A DNA stretch of 20,814 nt from a virus: the IMG/VR virus record IMGVR_UViG_3300027712_000186, positions 1 through 20,814 of that record; one strand, 5' to 3'. The notes beneath the pieces are model-generated. The model was not told the DNA's origin. It did not search any database and saw only the letters and a list, made by a program, of their open reading frames with translations. A program made the translations under genes and the position numbers. Below are positions 1,099-8,950 of this stretch, piece after piece (positions within the stretch are counted from its first letter, which is position 1; each line of letters starts with the position of its first letter).

Positions 1099-1177
1099 AT
1101 TGTTGTCTAAGAAGTCCGGATAAGTTGAACACTTAACGTCTTGTCTTAAAAGCCTTAATCCTAAAGACTTACCGCAA

Positions 1178-1219
1178 TACACCCGGCACGATTTGAACGT
1201 GCGACCTTTTGCTCCGGAG
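1178..1219 (-). other. Probable attP core: 3' half of a tRNA-Arg(CCG)
   Basis: Read on the minus strand, this is a clean tRNA 3' half. It has anticodon loop CTCCGGA (U33, anticodon CCG, purine 37), 3' anticodon stem GCAAA, five-base variable loop AGGTC, T-stem GCACG/CGTGC enclosing the canonical loop TTCAAAT, acceptor strand CGGGTGT and discriminator A. The 5' side is not a tRNA: no D-arm is present and the anticodon 5' stem is displaced by four bases, although ACACCCC at 1250-1256 pairs with the acceptor strand at 6 of 7 positions. Phage integrases of this family commonly recombine in tRNA genes, and attP then carries the tRNA from the anticodon loop to the 3' end. The position next to int supports attP. 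Confidence 0.65.
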
Positions 1220-1277
1220 ATTTGCAAGGTCGATTTTTCAGATCTTCTCGGGGTGTAATCCATTAAATACCAACGGG

Positions 1278-1310
1278 TTGCGAGTTAGAGGGACGGGGAC
1301 GGGTTAGTTA
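1278..1310. repeat. 33-bp direct repeat, copy 1, at the 3' end of the RHH-like gene 1308-1580
   Basis: Identical over 33 bp to 1595-1627. On the minus strand it begins TAACTAACCCGTCCCC and supplies the stop codon of the upstream gene. It is C/T-rich and not a stem-loop, so it does not look like an intrinsic terminator. Confidence 0.9.
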
Positions 1311-1580
1311 TCGGGCGATTGTAGAGTGCATCACTATCGTGGGCGACGACTCGCCTGACAGTTCAGCGAACCAGTTTGAATAAGCCTGGTCGCGTTTTGA
1401 TTCAGACAAGACCAAGAATTCCTTGATCGCGGCCATCACGATTGCGGCGTGGCGTGGTCGTCGATTTCCAAACATCTGGTCAGTCATGCGTAATCTGGAT
1501 ATTTCCATATCAAGATCAGCTAGGATTTGAGGGGCAACCCGCAAATCCATCCGAGCGGATAGAACATCTGCTTTCGACAT
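1308..1580 (-). CDS. Small ribbon-helix-helix-like regulator (90 aa)
   Basis: A 90-residue protein with an excellent ribosome site (AAAGGAGGTACCG before ATG at 1580). The pattern is a short beta stretch (ARMDLRVAPQ), a helix (ILADLDMEISRL) and a second helix (RHAAIVMAAIKEFL). This is the arrangement of Arc/MetJ-type RHH DNA-binding proteins, though no family is certain. It lies downstream of the similar gene 1621-1896 in the same leftward transcript. Both share an APQ-x-L-plus-IS pattern and both end in the same 33-bp repeat, suggesting duplication. In context it would be a lysogenic regulator or co-repressor. It could instead be an unrelated small helical protein. Confidence 0.7.
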   Translation of the reverse strand: MSKADVLSARMDLRVAPQILADLDMEISRLRMTDQMFGNRRPRHAAIVMAAIKEFLVLSESKRDQAYSNWFAELSGESSPTIVMHSTIAR

Positions 1581-1594
1581 CGGTACCTCCTTTC

Positions 1595-1627
1595 TTGCGA
1601 GTTAGAGGGACGGGGACGGGTTAGTTA
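1595..1627. repeat. 33-bp direct repeat, copy 2, at the 3' end of the RHH-like gene 1621-1896
   Basis: An exact copy of 1278-1310, here supplying the stop of the first leftward gene in a different register of the TAACTAA stop cluster. It separates the two leftward genes and is followed at once by the ribosome site of the second. Confidence 0.9.
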
Positions 1628-1896
1628 GACGATGACGTTTTTCGCGAAATCGACTTAAACGAGTCCGATGCGTTCTTTAGCATTTCGGGCCAGTTGGATT
1701 CGCCGGAGGCATACAGAGATGCCGCCATCCAAGCCCAGATGTCTTTTTCTAGCGGCACCTTGCCGTTGATCCGGAAGTCAGCCATCTCGGCCCATGCCGA
1801 AATCTTTCTGACTGCTCCCCGAAGTTCCTGCGGTGCCCTGAACATGACGCCGACCTCGGCTGTTTTAGCCTCAATCGGTTTATTTTTCGTGATCAC
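1621..1896 (-). CDS. Small RHH-like regulator, Mnt-position candidate repressor (91 aa)
   Basis: First gene of the leftward immunity transcript. I choose the GTG at 1896 over the ATG at 1977: TAGGAG sits 9 bases ahead of it, and the longer reading would cover the promoter and operator (1912-1970). The protein has a beta-like segment (VGVMFRAPQ), a helix (ELRGAVRKISAWAEMA) and a second helix (LEKDIWAWMAASLYA), consistent with a ribbon-helix-helix fold with a long turn. A serine/lysine-rich tail follows. By position (divergent from an Arc-like gene plus antirepressor) it corresponds to mnt of P22. It may bind the inverted repeat at 1912-1939 and repress one or both divergent promoters. Fold and role are inferred. 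Confidence 0.7.
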   Translation of the reverse strand: MITKNKPIEAKTAEVGVMFRAPQELRGAVRKISAWAEMADFRINGKVPLEKDIWAWMAASLYASGESNWPEMLKNASDSFKSISRKTSSSN

Positions 1897-1911
1897 TGAT
1901 CTTACTCCTAT

Positions 1912-1939
1912 ACATGTGGAAAGATATCTATCCACATGT
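1912..1939. promoter_or_regulatory. 28-bp inverted-repeat operator candidate
   Basis: Perfect 9-bp arms ACATGTGGA and TCCACATGT flank the 10-bp centre AAGATATCTA, which itself contains the palindrome GATATC. The element covers the expected start of the leftward promoter (-10 at 1942-1947). It lies just before the ribosome site of gene 1621-1896. A bound dimer pair would block leftward transcription. RHH repressors typically bind such paired half-sites. Confidence 0.65.
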
Positions 1940-1941
1940 TC

Positions 1942-1970
1942 ATAGTATGACATCTCGCAAGAAAAGTCAA
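1942..1970 (-). promoter_or_regulatory. Leftward sigma70-type promoter of the RHH-like genes
   Basis: On the minus strand TTGACT (1970-1965) and TACTAT (1947-1942) are separated by exactly 17 bp. The predicted start falls inside the inverted repeat 1912-1939. It drives 1621-1896 and probably 1308-1580. Confidence 0.75.
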
Positions 1971-1985
1971 TTCTCAAAAATTATC

Positions 1986-2014
1986 TTGATTACAGAAAGA
2001 TATATTGCTATATT
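1986..2014 (+). promoter_or_regulatory. Rightward sigma70-type promoter of the Arc-like/antirepressor/primase operon
   Basis: TTGATT (1986-1991) and TATATT (2009-2014) with 17-bp spacing. The two -35 boxes of the divergent promoters are only 15 bp apart, so repressor binding could affect both. No terminator is visible before 5583, so the transcript probably reaches the primase-helicase. Confidence 0.7.
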
Positions 2015-2054
2015 ACTTTCGTTGGTTGGTTACTAGACTACAAAGGGGACAAAA

Positions 2055-2243
2055 GTGGCAACAAAGCATCGGATGATGATTAATGTGGACAAGTCGGTTT
2101 ATGAGTGGATACGGGATCACTCCCACACAAGCCGAACGAGCATGTCAGGCATCCTAAACGAGCTGGTCAAAAACGAGATGGTGAAAAGTAATGAGGAAAC
2201 CGAGATTGCGGCGAACCGTGTTGTGGTAGGGGCTGTGAGTTGA
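2055..2243 (+). CDS. Arc/CopG-like ribbon-helix-helix DNA-binding protein (62 aa)
   Basis: Starts at GTG with AAAGGGGAC six bases upstream. The sequence has the standard RHH order: basic N-terminus, beta strand (HRMMINVDK), helix (SVYEWIRDHSH), turn (SRTS) and helix (MSGILNELVKNEMVK), followed by a short tail. Arc of P22 is 53 aa and has the same layout. It is the first gene after the rightward promoter, with an antirepressor two genes downstream, exactly the order arc then ant in P22. A likely role is autorepression of this operon and possibly of the leftward promoter. The gene overlaps the next small gene by 4 bases (TTGA). Confidence 0.8.
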   Translation: MATKHRMMINVDKSVYEWIRDHSHTSRTSMSGILNELVKNEMVKSNEETEIAANRVVVGAVS

Positions 2244-2410
2244 AACGGGGGCTAGTCTGGGAACAACCAATCGGGGTTGTTCAAGGTGTCTTGGAGGAGC
2301 CTGAAGCGGGTTACGTTGACCCGCACGATGCGGAGGAACGGGAAGCAATTCAGTGGTTGGAGAATCAGGAGAAGAAGAAATGGGAAGCGAAATCGCCAGA
2401 CGAGAAGTAA
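2240..2410 (+). CDS. Small acidic/charged protein of unknown function (56 aa)
   Basis: A TTG start at 2240 overlaps the TGA of the RHH gene, with AGGGG 8 bases upstream. The frame stays open to TAA at 2408-2410, overlapping the next start (2380). The product is hydrophilic, with an acidic middle (EEPEAGYVDPHDAEEREAI) and a charged helical tail. I recognise no family. Support is the ribosome site, overlap-type coupling on both sides, and the lack of any other use for this segment. The TTG start lowers certainty. Confidence 0.5.
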   Translation: MKRGLVWEQPIGVVQGVLEEPEAGYVDPHDAEEREAIQWLENQEKKKWEAKSPDEK

Positions 2411-3186
2411 CCGAAGTTAGTTCGACGAGAATTAACAACGATAAGCCCATGCGTGAAGGCGCAATTCAGGGGCGAAGGTACGCCAATATCCGAGACATCT
2501 GCACGATATGCGGACTCAGCTTTGTGACGGAAAGGGATAAGATTCGACAATCTTCATTCGCATCTGGAAAGTTTAGCGAAGTCACTGCTCCCTACGAGAT
2601 GTGGGTTGACTTTGATGTTATTGGTCACTGGCTCGAAATGGCACCCGTGGAGCCGGGATCACGGGAATCTGACGCGGCAGCCTTAATCAAAGAACACTGC
2701 AAGCCAATTCAGCCAAAACCACTCAGTTACGACCTGACAGACTTCTCGGATGTAAGGAGAAGTCTAGCCCTCGCTAATCGTGCTATGGAAGAAGTTGATA
2801 GGCAGGCAGGGGAAATTGTAAGCAAAGACTTGATTATTGCGTGCCTTTCGCCGAAAGCCGACTCGTTCGATCGGATCGCCGACTTGGACGGACAATTCCT
2901 TGTATCTGATGTGGCTAAAAAACTCGGGATCAAACACGCTTACTTGAAACTCATAATTACAAAGGAATTAAATTGGGCTTACACTCTGCGTGGCGACACG
3001 CGTTTACGCGCCACCGTGCGTGCGAAAGAAATGGGATTTGTGGATTATCATATGCACGAACAAACACCAGAAGGATATGTCATACCAGCTCAATTAAGGG
3101 TGACATCTAAGGGGCTGACGAAGATTTCAGATTTCATTTCTCAATCATCTAATCAGAGTCCGAAGGTTCGGCAGATCGGAGGATGA
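2380..3186 (+). CDS. Phage antirepressor, P22-Ant-N-like plus KilAC domain (268 aa)
   Basis: I choose ATG 2380 (AGGAG about 9 bases before it) over a GTG at 2353. Residues about 31-105 (RRYANIRDICTICGLSF, then a W-x-D and GHWLEMAPVEP segment) fit the N-terminal domain of P22-type antirepressors. There the pattern is a short beta unit, an R-x-K-I step and a Trp-containing helix. Residues about 154-253 match the KilAC/ANT domain: SPKADSFDRIADLDG, FLVSDVAKKLGI, ELNWAYTLRG, and a C-terminal LRVTSKGLTKISDFI. Such proteins inactivate repressors to trigger lytic growth; some KilAC proteins also bind DNA. It follows an Arc-like gene and precedes the primase by one base, so it belongs to the replication operon. 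KilAC is certain; the N-terminal assignment is likely. Confidence 0.85.
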   Translation: MGSEIARREVTEVSSTRINNDKPMREGAIQGRRYANIRDICTICGLSFVTERDKIRQSSFASGKFSEVTAPYEMWVDFDVIGHWLEMAPVEPGSRESDAAALIKEHCKPIQPKPLSYDLTDFSDVRRSLALANRAMEEVDRQAGEIVSKDLIIACLSPKADSFDRIADLDGQFLVSDVAKKLGIKHAYLKLIITKELNWAYTLRGDTRLRATVRAKEMGFVDYHMHEQTPEGYVIPAQLRVTSKGLTKISDFISQSSNQSPKVRQIGG

Positions 3187-3187
3187 A

Positions 3188-5554
3188 ATGTCAAACTTGC
3201 AAGATCTGGTATTCACTAAAACACCGTTAGATGCGGCACTCGCCGCTATTGATTGCGGCATGTGGCCAGTACCCATCAGGGCTGACGACGGCAAGAAGCC
3301 GCTAGGCGAAGACTGGAAACGGCAGTGGCCCGCCTCCGAGATTAAATCTGCGTTTACAAGCAGAGTGGCGAACGGGATCGGCTTAATCCTTGGGCCGGGT
3401 CCTGATTATCCAATCTTCGATATCGACCTTGATTCCGATCAAGCAATTGACGCGATGGCGGACCTGTTTGGAGCATCACCAGACTATACGCTTGGCTTCC
3501 GAGCGTCCCGTGGGAACCACTGGTTATACCAATGGGATGATCGACTCCAGAAAATTGACGCTGCCGTTAAACATTGGCCGATTGGGAAGGGGGTGACTGA
3601 ACAAATCGAAATCCGTCTCGGTTGTGGCAAGTCAGCTCAAACCGTGATTCCTCCAACCTGGCATAAGACCGCGGGCGTGTCTAGGTCATGGTTGCTGCCT
3701 GGCGATGGTAACATCAGGATATCCAAGGCACCGGACAGCGTCATTGAACGGCTTGTCAGGGACTTTGAACGGAAGGTCAATTTTAATGCCATTGAAAGTG
3801 CAGTTGAAAACCATCGTATAATTTCAGCTAGCTTTACAGGTGATCACCCATACAACCGAAAAGCCGTTGAAAGCATCCTTTTAGAGGTTAGCACTACACA
3901 GGAAGGCGGGCGGAACGATGCGGTATATGACGCGGCGTGGCACATCGCAAGCCTGATGAAATCCCAGAACCTAGACCCAAACCCGGATCTCGCCATGCTA
4001 GGCGTGGTGTCAGCTCAGATAGGTTTGTGCGAGATAGAGTATTCGCAAGCGATTAGGAATGGGTGGAGATGGGGTACAGAGAATCCAAGAAAGCCTCCAG
4101 TCTTAACGCCAGTTAGAGAATCTGAAACCGTTGCGGTTAAGACAAAAAAGAAGGGGAAAACAAAGGTTATTGACGCCTTCTCCGATTCAGCCTTACCAAA
4201 GGAAGGCTATACCGACTTGAAATTCGCCGAAATGGTTATCGCTGCGTTTGGCGAAAGATTCCGCTATATTGAATCATGGAAAACATGGGCGTCATGGGAC
4301 GGCGACAAAGGTGTCTGGGTGCAATCGCAGTGCCTGCACCATGAACTGTTCAAGGAATTTGCGAGCGGTGATGATTCTTATCTAGGCTCGATGGCAAAAA
4401 TCAAATCAGCCGCTTCAATCGCGATGTCTGATAAACGGGTCATGGCTTATCCTGATCGGTTTGACGCCCAGGTCGATTATCTGAACCTCAAGAACGGTGT
4501 TTTGGACCTCGTCGGCGGGCAGCTGCTCGACCACGACCCCGCGTTCATGTCCACCAAACAGGCTGACGTGATTTTCGACCCGTCTGCCAAGTGTCCGAAA
4601 TTCATCGCGACACTGGAACAGGTTCAACCGGATCCTGAGATTCGGCTATTCCTTCAACGCTGGCTCGGTACGGTTTTGAGTGGTCGCACATTGGCCGAAT
4701 CGGTGGTCAATTATGGTGACGGTGCGAACGGTAAATCGACCATCCTCGAATCCGTTGGCCTGATGATGGGCACTTACTTCGCGAAAATGCCACGGGGTTT
4801 TATCGCCAAAACCAAGGGCGATAGACACCCAGCGGAACTGGTCACTCTTTACGGTGCCCGTTTCGCCCTGGCATCTGAGACTGATATATCTGATGCCCTG
4901 GACGAATCCAAAATCAAAATGATCCTGGGCGATGGCTCCATCACAGCCAGGCGAATGAACGAAAACTTTTGGTCGTTCAACCCGACGCACAAATTCGCGA
5001 TCGCTGCCAACCACATGCCGTCAATCGTCGGGCAGGATTCGGGCATCTGGCGCAGGCTGGCGTTTGTGCCGTGGACCGTCACCATCCCTGAGGAACAGCG
5101 ACAGCCGGAATACGAAAAGGTACTGCATCAAGAGGAATCAAGCGGCATCCTGAACTGGTTACTAGAGGGCTACAGGCAGCACCAAGCGATCGGGCTGGCT
5201 ATTCCTGATAAGATCAAGGCCGCCGGGAAGGACGTCCAAGAGTCGAGCGATTGGCTTGGGGAGTTCTTCTCCGAGAACCTGACCACACAGCCGAAGCCGG
5301 GCTATGCTGACGCCGACCGTATCCGAGCCAGTCAGGTCTATGAGCTGTACAAGAAATGGGCGATGGCGAACGGTGCGGTGGTGCTGGCATCGAACAAGGC
5401 GATACCGCTATTCACAAAGCGTGTTGAGCAATTACGGGCGGCATCGCGCAGGCTCCAGAACGTCACTTGGTACATTGGCCTTCGGATTAAAGACGAATCC
5501 GACCACCAGTATGAGGCCGATGGGATCGTGATCCCTGCCGGGTCGCCTTTCTGA
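3188..5554 (+). CDS. Bifunctional PrimPol primase and SF3 helicase (P4 alpha / D5 type, 788 aa)
   Basis: Starts at ATG 3188 behind CGGAGG, one base after the antirepressor stop. The N-terminal half is an archaeo-eukaryotic primase/PrimPol: the metal-binding motif FDIDLDS (Asp78, Asp80) and a RGNHWLY motif (His111). A lysine-rich linker (about 317-325) separates it from the D5_N-like region and the superfamily 3 helicase. Helicase motifs are Walker A GDGANGKST (510-518, Lys516), Walker B ALASETD (560-566), sensor-1 Asn608 in AIAANHMP and Arg622/623. It should prime and unwind phage DNA at the origin. The GGTAGGGG iteron array starts about 120 bp after its stop. In phage P4 the equivalent protein also binds the origin iterons itself, which may hold here. 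A terminator follows at 5583. Confidence 0.93.
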   Translation: MSNLQDLVFTKTPLDAALAAIDCGMWPVPIRADDGKKPLGEDWKRQWPASEIKSAFTSRVANGIGLILGPGPDYPIFDIDLDSDQAIDAMADLFGASPDYTLGFRASRGNHWLYQWDDRLQKIDAAVKHWPIGKGVTEQIEIRLGCGKSAQTVIPPTWHKTAGVSRSWLLPGDGNIRISKAPDSVIERLVRDFERKVNFNAIESAVENHRIISASFTGDHPYNRKAVESILLEVSTTQEGGRNDAVYDAAWHIASLMKSQNLDPNPDLAMLGVVSAQIGLCEIEYSQAIRNGWRWGTENPRKPPVLTPVRESETVAVKTKKKGKTKVIDAFSDSALPKEGYTDLKFAEMVIAAFGERFRYIESWKTWASWDGDKGVWVQSQCLHHELFKEFASGDDSYLGSMAKIKSAASIAMSDKRVMAYPDRFDAQVDYLNLKNGVLDLVGGQLLDHDPAFMSTKQADVIFDPSAKCPKFIATLEQVQPDPEIRLFLQRWLGTVLSGRTLAESVVNYGDGANGKSTILESVGLMMGTYFAKMPRGFIAKTKGDRHPAELVTLYGARFALASETDISDALDESKIKMILGDGSITARRMNENFWSFNPTHKFAIAANHMPSIVGQDSGIWRRLAFVPWTVTIPEEQRQPEYEKVLHQEESSGILNWLLEGYRQHQAIGLAIPDKIKAAGKDVQESSDWLGEFFSENLTTQPKPGYADADRIRASQVYELYKKWAMANGAVVLASNKAIPLFTKRVEQLRAASRRLQNVTWYIGLRIKDESDHQYEADGIVIPAGSPF

Positions 5555-5582: not shown

Positions 5583-5608
5583 AAAACACGGTAAAACCCG
5601 TGTTTTTT
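5583..5608 (+). terminator. Intrinsic terminator after the primase-helicase
   Basis: The 9-bp stem AAAACACGG/CCGTGTTTT (5583-5591 with 5598-5606), a six-base loop TAAAAC and a T-run (six Ts counting the stem). It closes the rightward operon that begins at 1986. The A/T symmetry could make it bidirectional. Confidence 0.75.
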
Positions 5609-5674
5609 CGTTGACGGTTGTCATACTAATTAGTACGACACCTGTAAAAAGTTAGCGACTAACTTCGCGATTCA

Positions 5675-5760
5675 GGTAGGGGTCGTGGTAGGGGTGTAGG
5701 TAGGGGTAAAGGTAGGGGTTTTGTACTTATTTACTAGGGGTTTTATAAAAAGGTAGGGGT
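5675..5760 (+). repeat. GGTAGGGGT iterons, left array (5 exact copies, 1 degenerate)
   Basis: Exact 9-mers start at 5675, 5687, 5699 and 5711, a strict 12-bp step. A further exact copy lies at 5752-5760 and a degenerate one (ACTAGGGGT) at 5733-5741. The 12-bp step would place binding sites about 1.1 helical turns apart. Confidence 0.93.
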
Positions 5761-5772
5761 GTATAGTCATCT

Positions 5773-5813
5773 ACACGTGCGCACGCACAGGCATGCGCAC
5801 ACACGCACACATC
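5773..5813. other. Alternating purine-pyrimidine (CA/GC) tract in the origin
   Basis: Two runs of near-perfect purine-pyrimidine alternation (5773-5789 and 5791-5813), rich in CAC/GCGC with TGCGCA twice, sit between the left and right iteron arrays. Such DNA can adopt the left-handed Z form under negative supercoiling. A structural role is speculative. Confidence 0.5.
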
Positions 5814-5834
5814 CGTGAGTGAACTTTTTCCGTG

Positions 5835-5929
5835 CCCCTACCTACCCCTACCTTGATTTTTAATTCCTTTACCACATAGGAAGTTACACGATAATCGGAC
5901 GGATCGAACCCCTACCTTGCACCCCTACC
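5835..5929 (-). repeat. Inverted iterons ACCCCTACC, right array (4 copies)
   Basis: Copies of the same iteron on the opposite strand lie at 5835-5842 (8 bases, CCCCTACC), 5844-5852, 5908-5916 and 5921-5929. They face the left array, giving the origin an overall inverted symmetry. Steps are 10 and 13 bp, less regular than on the left. Confidence 0.92.
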
Positions 5930-5962
5930 TTGTATGGTATCGCATGTAGCTATCAAAAAATA

Positions 5963-8737: not shown

Positions 8738-8950
8738 ATGCTAGTCCTGAAATGCAAAATCGGCGAAGAAATCGTGATTTCGGTCAACGGAATCGAAACC
8801 GTTCTGACGGTGACGGAATCACATCACGGTGCGGTCAAGCTGGGTTTCTCGGCTCCACCGGAGGTTGTGATTGATCGGCGGGTCGTGTGGGCGAAGAAGA
8901 TGATGAATGCAGTAACTAAGGTAAGTTCAAATACAGGGGAAATATCATGA
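8738..8950 (+). CDS. csrA: CsrA-family RNA-binding translational regulator (70 aa)
   Basis: Begins MLVL-x-C-K-I-G-E and continues with IVI, TVLTV, GAVKLGF-APPEV and DRRVV, the strand order of CsrA (about 61 aa in E. coli). The dimer binds GGA-containing mRNA leaders and blocks or stabilises them. Two changes stand out: Arg6 of the family is Cys6, and the His before the key Arg (R44 in E. coli, here Arg47) is Asp46. Arg47 is kept, and three extra residues lie in the first loops. ATG 8738 has GGAGG nine bases ahead. It overlaps the following ParB-like gene by 4 bases. The likely role is rewiring host or phage translation; the leader 8361-8737 may regulate it. Confidence 0.88.
   Translation: MLVLKCKIGEEIVISVNGIETVLTVTESHHGAVKLGFSAPPEVVIDRRVVWAKKMMNAVTKVSSNTGEIS

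Follow-up and report, generated by a model that had tools for sequence, protein, structure and literature searches.

The window analysed here, the whole 20,814-nucleotide stretch of IMG/VR record IMGVR_UViG_3300027712_000186, represents 20.8 kb of the genome of a temperate, uncultured phage and is a fragment that carries, between the integrase and a replication gene, a candidate lysis-lysogeny switch. Relatives were gathered by scans with the primase, the integrase, the leftward proteins L1 and L2, the rightward protein ArcA and the ori-side protein, giving about a dozen phages, among them G001 (33 kb) and G002 (36.3 kb, regarded as complete, with a terminal direct repeat of 84 bp). At the left end lies a tyrosine integrase gene (int) on the minus strand (3-1073; PF00589, 1e-16; PHROG 1), followed by a candidate phage attachment site (attP; 1176-1221, minus strand) in which the T-arm and variable-arm pattern of the 3' part of a tRNA-like sequence can be read. 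This candidate is conserved from phage to phage, the T-stem showing paired changes, and ARAGORN reported no complete tRNA in the window. Next come the leftward genes L1 (1308-1580) and L2 (1621-1896; GTG start, Shine-Dalgarno AGGAG), each with its stop codon inside one copy of an exact 33-bp repeat (1278-1310 and 1595-1627, respectively). The opposite strand encodes ArcA (62 amino acids; 2055-2243), a small protein of 56 amino acids (2240-2410), a KilAC-domain antirepressor-like protein here called Ant (2380-3186) and a PrimPol/D5 primase-helicase (3188-5554; PF09250, PF08706, PHROG 1156), which starts one base past the stop of Ant (3186), as an earlier sequence-only reading of this DNA had noted. 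An intrinsic terminator follows at 5583-5606 on the plus strand (hairpin of -10.6 kcal/mol, then a U-run); its sequence is kept in three relatives, G001-G003, and the rightward transcription unit therefore probably ends there.

Transcription in the two directions would start from P_L (1942-1970, minus strand; TTGACT-17-TACTAT) and P_R (1986-2014, plus strand; TTGATT-17-TATATT), and our analysis agrees with the sequence-only reading that these are divergent promoters of 17-bp spacing whose -35 boxes are 15 bp apart. Lone promoter matches over 5 kb are not above chance (4 observed, 4.7 expected); a divergent pair with 17-bp spacing within the intergenic region of the window is rare (4 of 1000 shuffles), and such a pair is present in the intergenic regions of all five switch types described below (0-4 of 1000 shuffles each). 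A 28-bp near-perfect palindrome at 1912-1939, overlooked before, covers the expected P_L start and is a candidate operator, O_L. For the window, none of 300 shuffles produced a palindrome as good, it is a single site per genome in the window and in G001, and G001 and G002 show symmetric base changes in both arms. Its half-site GAAAGATAT recurs within the P_R spacer (1995-2003, plus strand; candidate O_R), and these are the only two copies in the entire window and in complete G002. Formation of an RNA hairpin by the palindrome (-14.5 kcal/mol) was considered and is less favoured, since the hairpin would contain the expected P_L start.

ArcA had been taken for an Arc-like ribbon-helix-helix (RHH) protein, and this identification is borne out by a match to PHROG 3180 (E=1e-4) and by a profile of all rightward proteins, which matches RHH structures, with RHH protein 56B at 6e-5. 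A protein that distantly resembles ArcA (38% across some 50 amino acids) also occurs in 17 other viral contigs (L015-L031). Comparison of the relatives shows that the window's switch is one member of an allelic series. At least five switch types, A to E, adjoin the conserved int/attP, and every type has its own leftward gene, divergent promoters and a rightward RHH-like gene. Type A, to which the window belongs, consists of L2 and ArcA, and type B of L1 and an RHH protein matching 56B_RHH; the 56-amino-acid gene is common to both by sequence comparison. In type C (L042, L069) a relative of L1 (46%) is paired with a further RHH-like protein; in type D (L046) the leftward protein is related to L2 (25%, E=1e-11) and the rightward one is RHH_3-like. 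Type E (L047, L048) has a third protein of the L1 family (type C against type E: 8e-6), with an integrase of 80% identity and an operon that, as read from its sequence, looks like YqaJ exonuclease/RecT, not primase. RHH-like support for the rightward proteins is firmest in types A and B and weak in C, D and E (E 0.003-0.05). Integrases of types A to D are 90-92% identical to that of the window, yet the neighbouring switches are quite different. In all loci found, the leftward and rightward alleles are paired, and the promoter region is inherited together with them. A segment like TTGCGAGTTTAAAGGGGGAGGACGGGTTAGTTA that includes the leftward stop codon forms the left border of the module in types A to D. 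The pattern is that of immunity modules exchanged between relatives through recombination at the conserved flanks.

Ant does not share this constancy. The label 'Ant-N-like/KilAC' given to it earlier holds for the KilAC part (PF03374, 2e-10; 41.3 bits, above the curated cut-off of 25.3) and fails for the N-terminus, where the P22_AR_N match stays below threshold (12.7 bits, cut-off 30.7). A Pfam search recovered KilAC in one of 13 related records, G001, thus in two of 14 when the window is counted. G001 keeps L2, ArcA, the small gene, Ant and primase and lacks L1, while G002 and G003 retain L2, ArcA and the small gene without Ant and have a different primase N-terminus; within the primase, the N-terminal part is exchanged between the pairs G001/window and G002/G003 and the C-terminal part is conserved. 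G002, G003 and L070 have nothing in the slot between small gene and primase. In type C a DUF3223/HNH-like gene lies there and in type D a gene of similar size, and in L061 the slot is occupied by a gene with weak matches to endonuclease families. Because the slot is empty or otherwise filled in relatives, the KilAC antirepressor is, as judged from gene content, optional cargo and no core part of the switch.

Is this locus the main immunity switch of the phage? The sequence-only reading had seen no helix-turn-helix (HTH) CI-like repressor in the window, and indeed the HTH_3 domain was not found there; the same search was negative in all six records to which it was applied and positive in 14 of 14 control genomes. 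A scan of 87 open reading frames of G002 turned up neither CI nor S24 nor any other classical repressor domain; its matches included CsrA, the gamma domain of FtsK and, marginally, HTH_46. Since the complete relative has no CI or HTH repressor among its scanned reading frames, the locus is probably the primary switch, with the layout of a rep/cro early operon. Consistent with such a layout, the divergent promoters have a leftward gene adjoining int on one side and the rightward operon with the replication gene on the other, and the entire module is exchanged allelically between related phages. The earlier proposal of a primary lysis-lysogeny switch that also controls replication thus fits both layout and gene content.

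An unusual feature of the window is L1, whose foreign origin and flanking repeats had escaped the sequence-only reading. L1 sits between attP and L2 with an exact 33-bp repeat on both sides and has no counterpart in G001-G003. Its product is 100% identical in amino acid sequence to that of type-B phages L040 and L061, and relative to L061 the gene shows 7 synonymous and 0 non-synonymous changes; L2 is likewise 100% identical in G001 and G002, with synonymous changes only. The two leftward genes do not form an mnt pair; they belong to two different switch types that are otherwise mutually exclusive. The first repeat copy is the left border of the swappable module, and the second marks the junction between a type-B-like left part and a type-A right part. 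The copy adjoining L2 agrees with that of L061, a type-B phage, and differs from those of the type-A relatives, which suggests a genuine recombination history. Type-B homology runs as far as 1594-1596, directly upstream of the Shine-Dalgarno sequence of L1, so that L1 is left with no promoter of its own and is placed behind L2 for co-transcription. A type-B operator-like site, AAAACGTCAAATACGTTTT, is found in three type-B loci; a search allowing up to 4 mismatches gave no copy of it in the window. With no such site in the window, L1, if it is a repressor, would have its target in other phages and act in trans against those of type B. Contigs of types A, B and E have the dataset prefix 3300034107 in common, and such phages may therefore meet.

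L1 is most plausibly read as a repressor captured from another switch type, through which the phage would gain dual immunity. In its full form, a naturally dual-immune phage with its own type-A repressor and a captured, co-transcribed type-B repressor, in a group with RHH primary switches of at least five allelic specificities, we offer this reading only tentatively. The strongest competitor regards L1 as a neutral leftover of recombination, functionless in this phage. The missing type-B operator-like site and a tandem seen in a single contig would suit such a leftover; the open frame, the Shine-Dalgarno sequence and the purely synonymous divergence from L061 speak for a maintained gene, with the reservation that this divergence may partly predate the capture. 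We consider a functionless L1 unlikely, though a serious contender, and keep to the captured repressor.

The sequence-only reading had called the leftward genes RHH-like. Neither L1 nor L2 matched any family in Pfam, PHROG or further family searches, and hhalign gave no link between the L1 family and the L2 family. AlphaFold models show three or four helices and a low-confidence N-terminus; an extended segment followed by two helices, a reading of the pattern, would suit an RHH chain. Weak matches of the L1-family profile to SATB1 and SATB2 among PDB sequences (E about 0.002-0.005) were judged to be chance. The leftward genes might also encode accessory proteins of integration or excision and not immunity repressors: they are small, adjoin int on the same strand and match no DNA-binding family. 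However, they co-vary with the promoter region and the rightward gene and not with the 90-92% identical integrase of types A to D, which argues against a role as excision factors, because these should follow the integrase. A better candidate is a 102-amino-acid leftward gene on the other side of int (L004:2350-2658), conserved in types A, B, C and E independently of type, as an excision factor or a regulator. An accessory function of L1 and L2 is improbable, and we regard L2 as the probable lysogeny repressor of type A.

Taken together, we favour, as the probable though by no means assured reading, a primary early switch of a temperate phage in rep/cro layout with a rightward RHH protein, carried on an allelic module and extended by a captured L1. 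Several points weigh against it. Relatives have a small RHH-like gene on the far side of int (Pfam Arc, E=0.03), which makes another regulator possible, and the O_R half-site copy of G003 is broken. Foldseek and VIA-align searches with the AlphaFold models of L1 and L2 gave no convincing match and listed no RHH chain, a weak test with monomer models from 4-5 similar sequences. No host or lysogen was identified, as the integrase profile and the att tRNA pattern returned zero relatives or matches in genome_contigs. Finally, the L1-L2 junction occurs in one contig only, and a search of viral_contigs gave no second.

In the favoured switch, P_L would drive the leftward gene or genes beside int as the lysogeny side, and the lytic side would be transcribed from P_R, through ArcA, the small gene and any optional cargo to the primase-helicase, as far as the terminator. 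In a lysogen, L2 would repress P_R so that replication stays off; in lytic growth, ArcA would take the role of cro and repress P_L. Both proteins could act at the palindrome that covers the start of P_L and at its half-site within the P_R spacer. Acting in trans, L1 would be directed against type-B phages and possibly protect the host, and the KilAC protein, as cargo, could counter the repressors of other prophages.

A further alternative is a true P22 immI-like mnt/arc/ant unit, with Mnt-like leftward proteins, a switch that serves to control the antirepressor, and the main repressor elsewhere. Gene order, the rightward RHH protein and the KilAC antirepressor agree with it. Against it stand the absence of Ant from type-A relatives that keep the remainder, and from all other types, the N-terminus below the P22_AR_N cut-off, and complete G002, in which the separate primary C2/CI-like repressor of the P22 arrangement was not found, the window itself being a fragment. 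The analogy drawn by the sequence-only reading does not extend to the unit as a whole, and we judge such a unit still less probable than an accessory function of the leftward genes. Because Ant is inconstant, its N-terminus falls short of P22_AR_N and P22 immI lies inside a late operon, the locus is not a member of P22 immI. Least probable of all is that the L1-L2 tandem is an artefact of metagenome assembly or a chimeric read in which a left part of type B and a right part of type A were fused, for although the junction is in this contig alone, its left part is type-B-like and its right part type-A-like, and type A and B contigs share the dataset prefix, the parents have few bases in common at the join (TTTCTT/GCGAG), both 33-bp copies are retained where joining at a shared word would be expected to leave one, and the copy beside L2 matches that of L061.

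Beyond the switch, a palindrome just past the terminator (5611-5648) is replaced by a different one at the equal place in G001, G002 and G003, and repeats of AGGTAGGGGT in both orientations downstream of the primase (5674-5931) are iteron-like and form a candidate replication origin. The early region also contains a CsrA-like gene (8738-8950), present in relatives as well, with a CsrA Pfam match in G002.

If the primary switch proposed here is real, the locus offers an allelic series of lysis-lysogeny switches other than CI at one site, useful for understanding how immunity specificity diversifies and recombines. It would also show how a temperate phage can widen its immunity through the leftward gene of another type while lacking the operator-like site that belongs to it. 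Linking the switch to replication is ordinary for early operons of the lambda type; what is unusual is the RHH regulator, together with the capture of a second leftward gene. In the literature searched, no direct precedent appeared for a tailed phage with an RHH protein as primary repressor or for a captured second repressor, which does not prove that none exists.

Among known systems, P22 immI, which lies within the late operon beside the primary C2 system (PMC8022706; PMC6550527), is similar in having a leftward regulator, divergent promoters and a rightward Arc-like RHH gene followed by an antirepressor-like gene. In contrast, the antirepressor here is optional, the unit lies between int/attP and the replication gene, and no CI-like repressor was found in the complete relative, where P22 has its primary C2 system. 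In lambda-type rep/cro early operons, the replication gene is part of the lytic operon and the immunity region is exchanged allelically. Our locus shares these properties, together with the leftward gene beside int and a small rightward DNA-binding protein, but the rightward protein is of the RHH and not the HTH kind, and a second, heterotypic leftward gene is added. A precedent for an RHH protein as lysogeny repressor is F55 of SSV1, which keeps lysogeny by repressing early promoters (PMC5569661). SSV1, however, is an archaeal virus with one regulator acting on tandem ATAGATAG sites and without such a divergent regulator pair. The antirepressors of Gifsy prophages are small, LexA-controlled and encoded outside the immunity region, and the KilAC domain of Ant belongs to a different family. 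Gifsy antirepressors act in trans on the repressors of heteroimmune prophages (PMC3121763), and the optional KilAC gene described here may have such a heteroimmune role.

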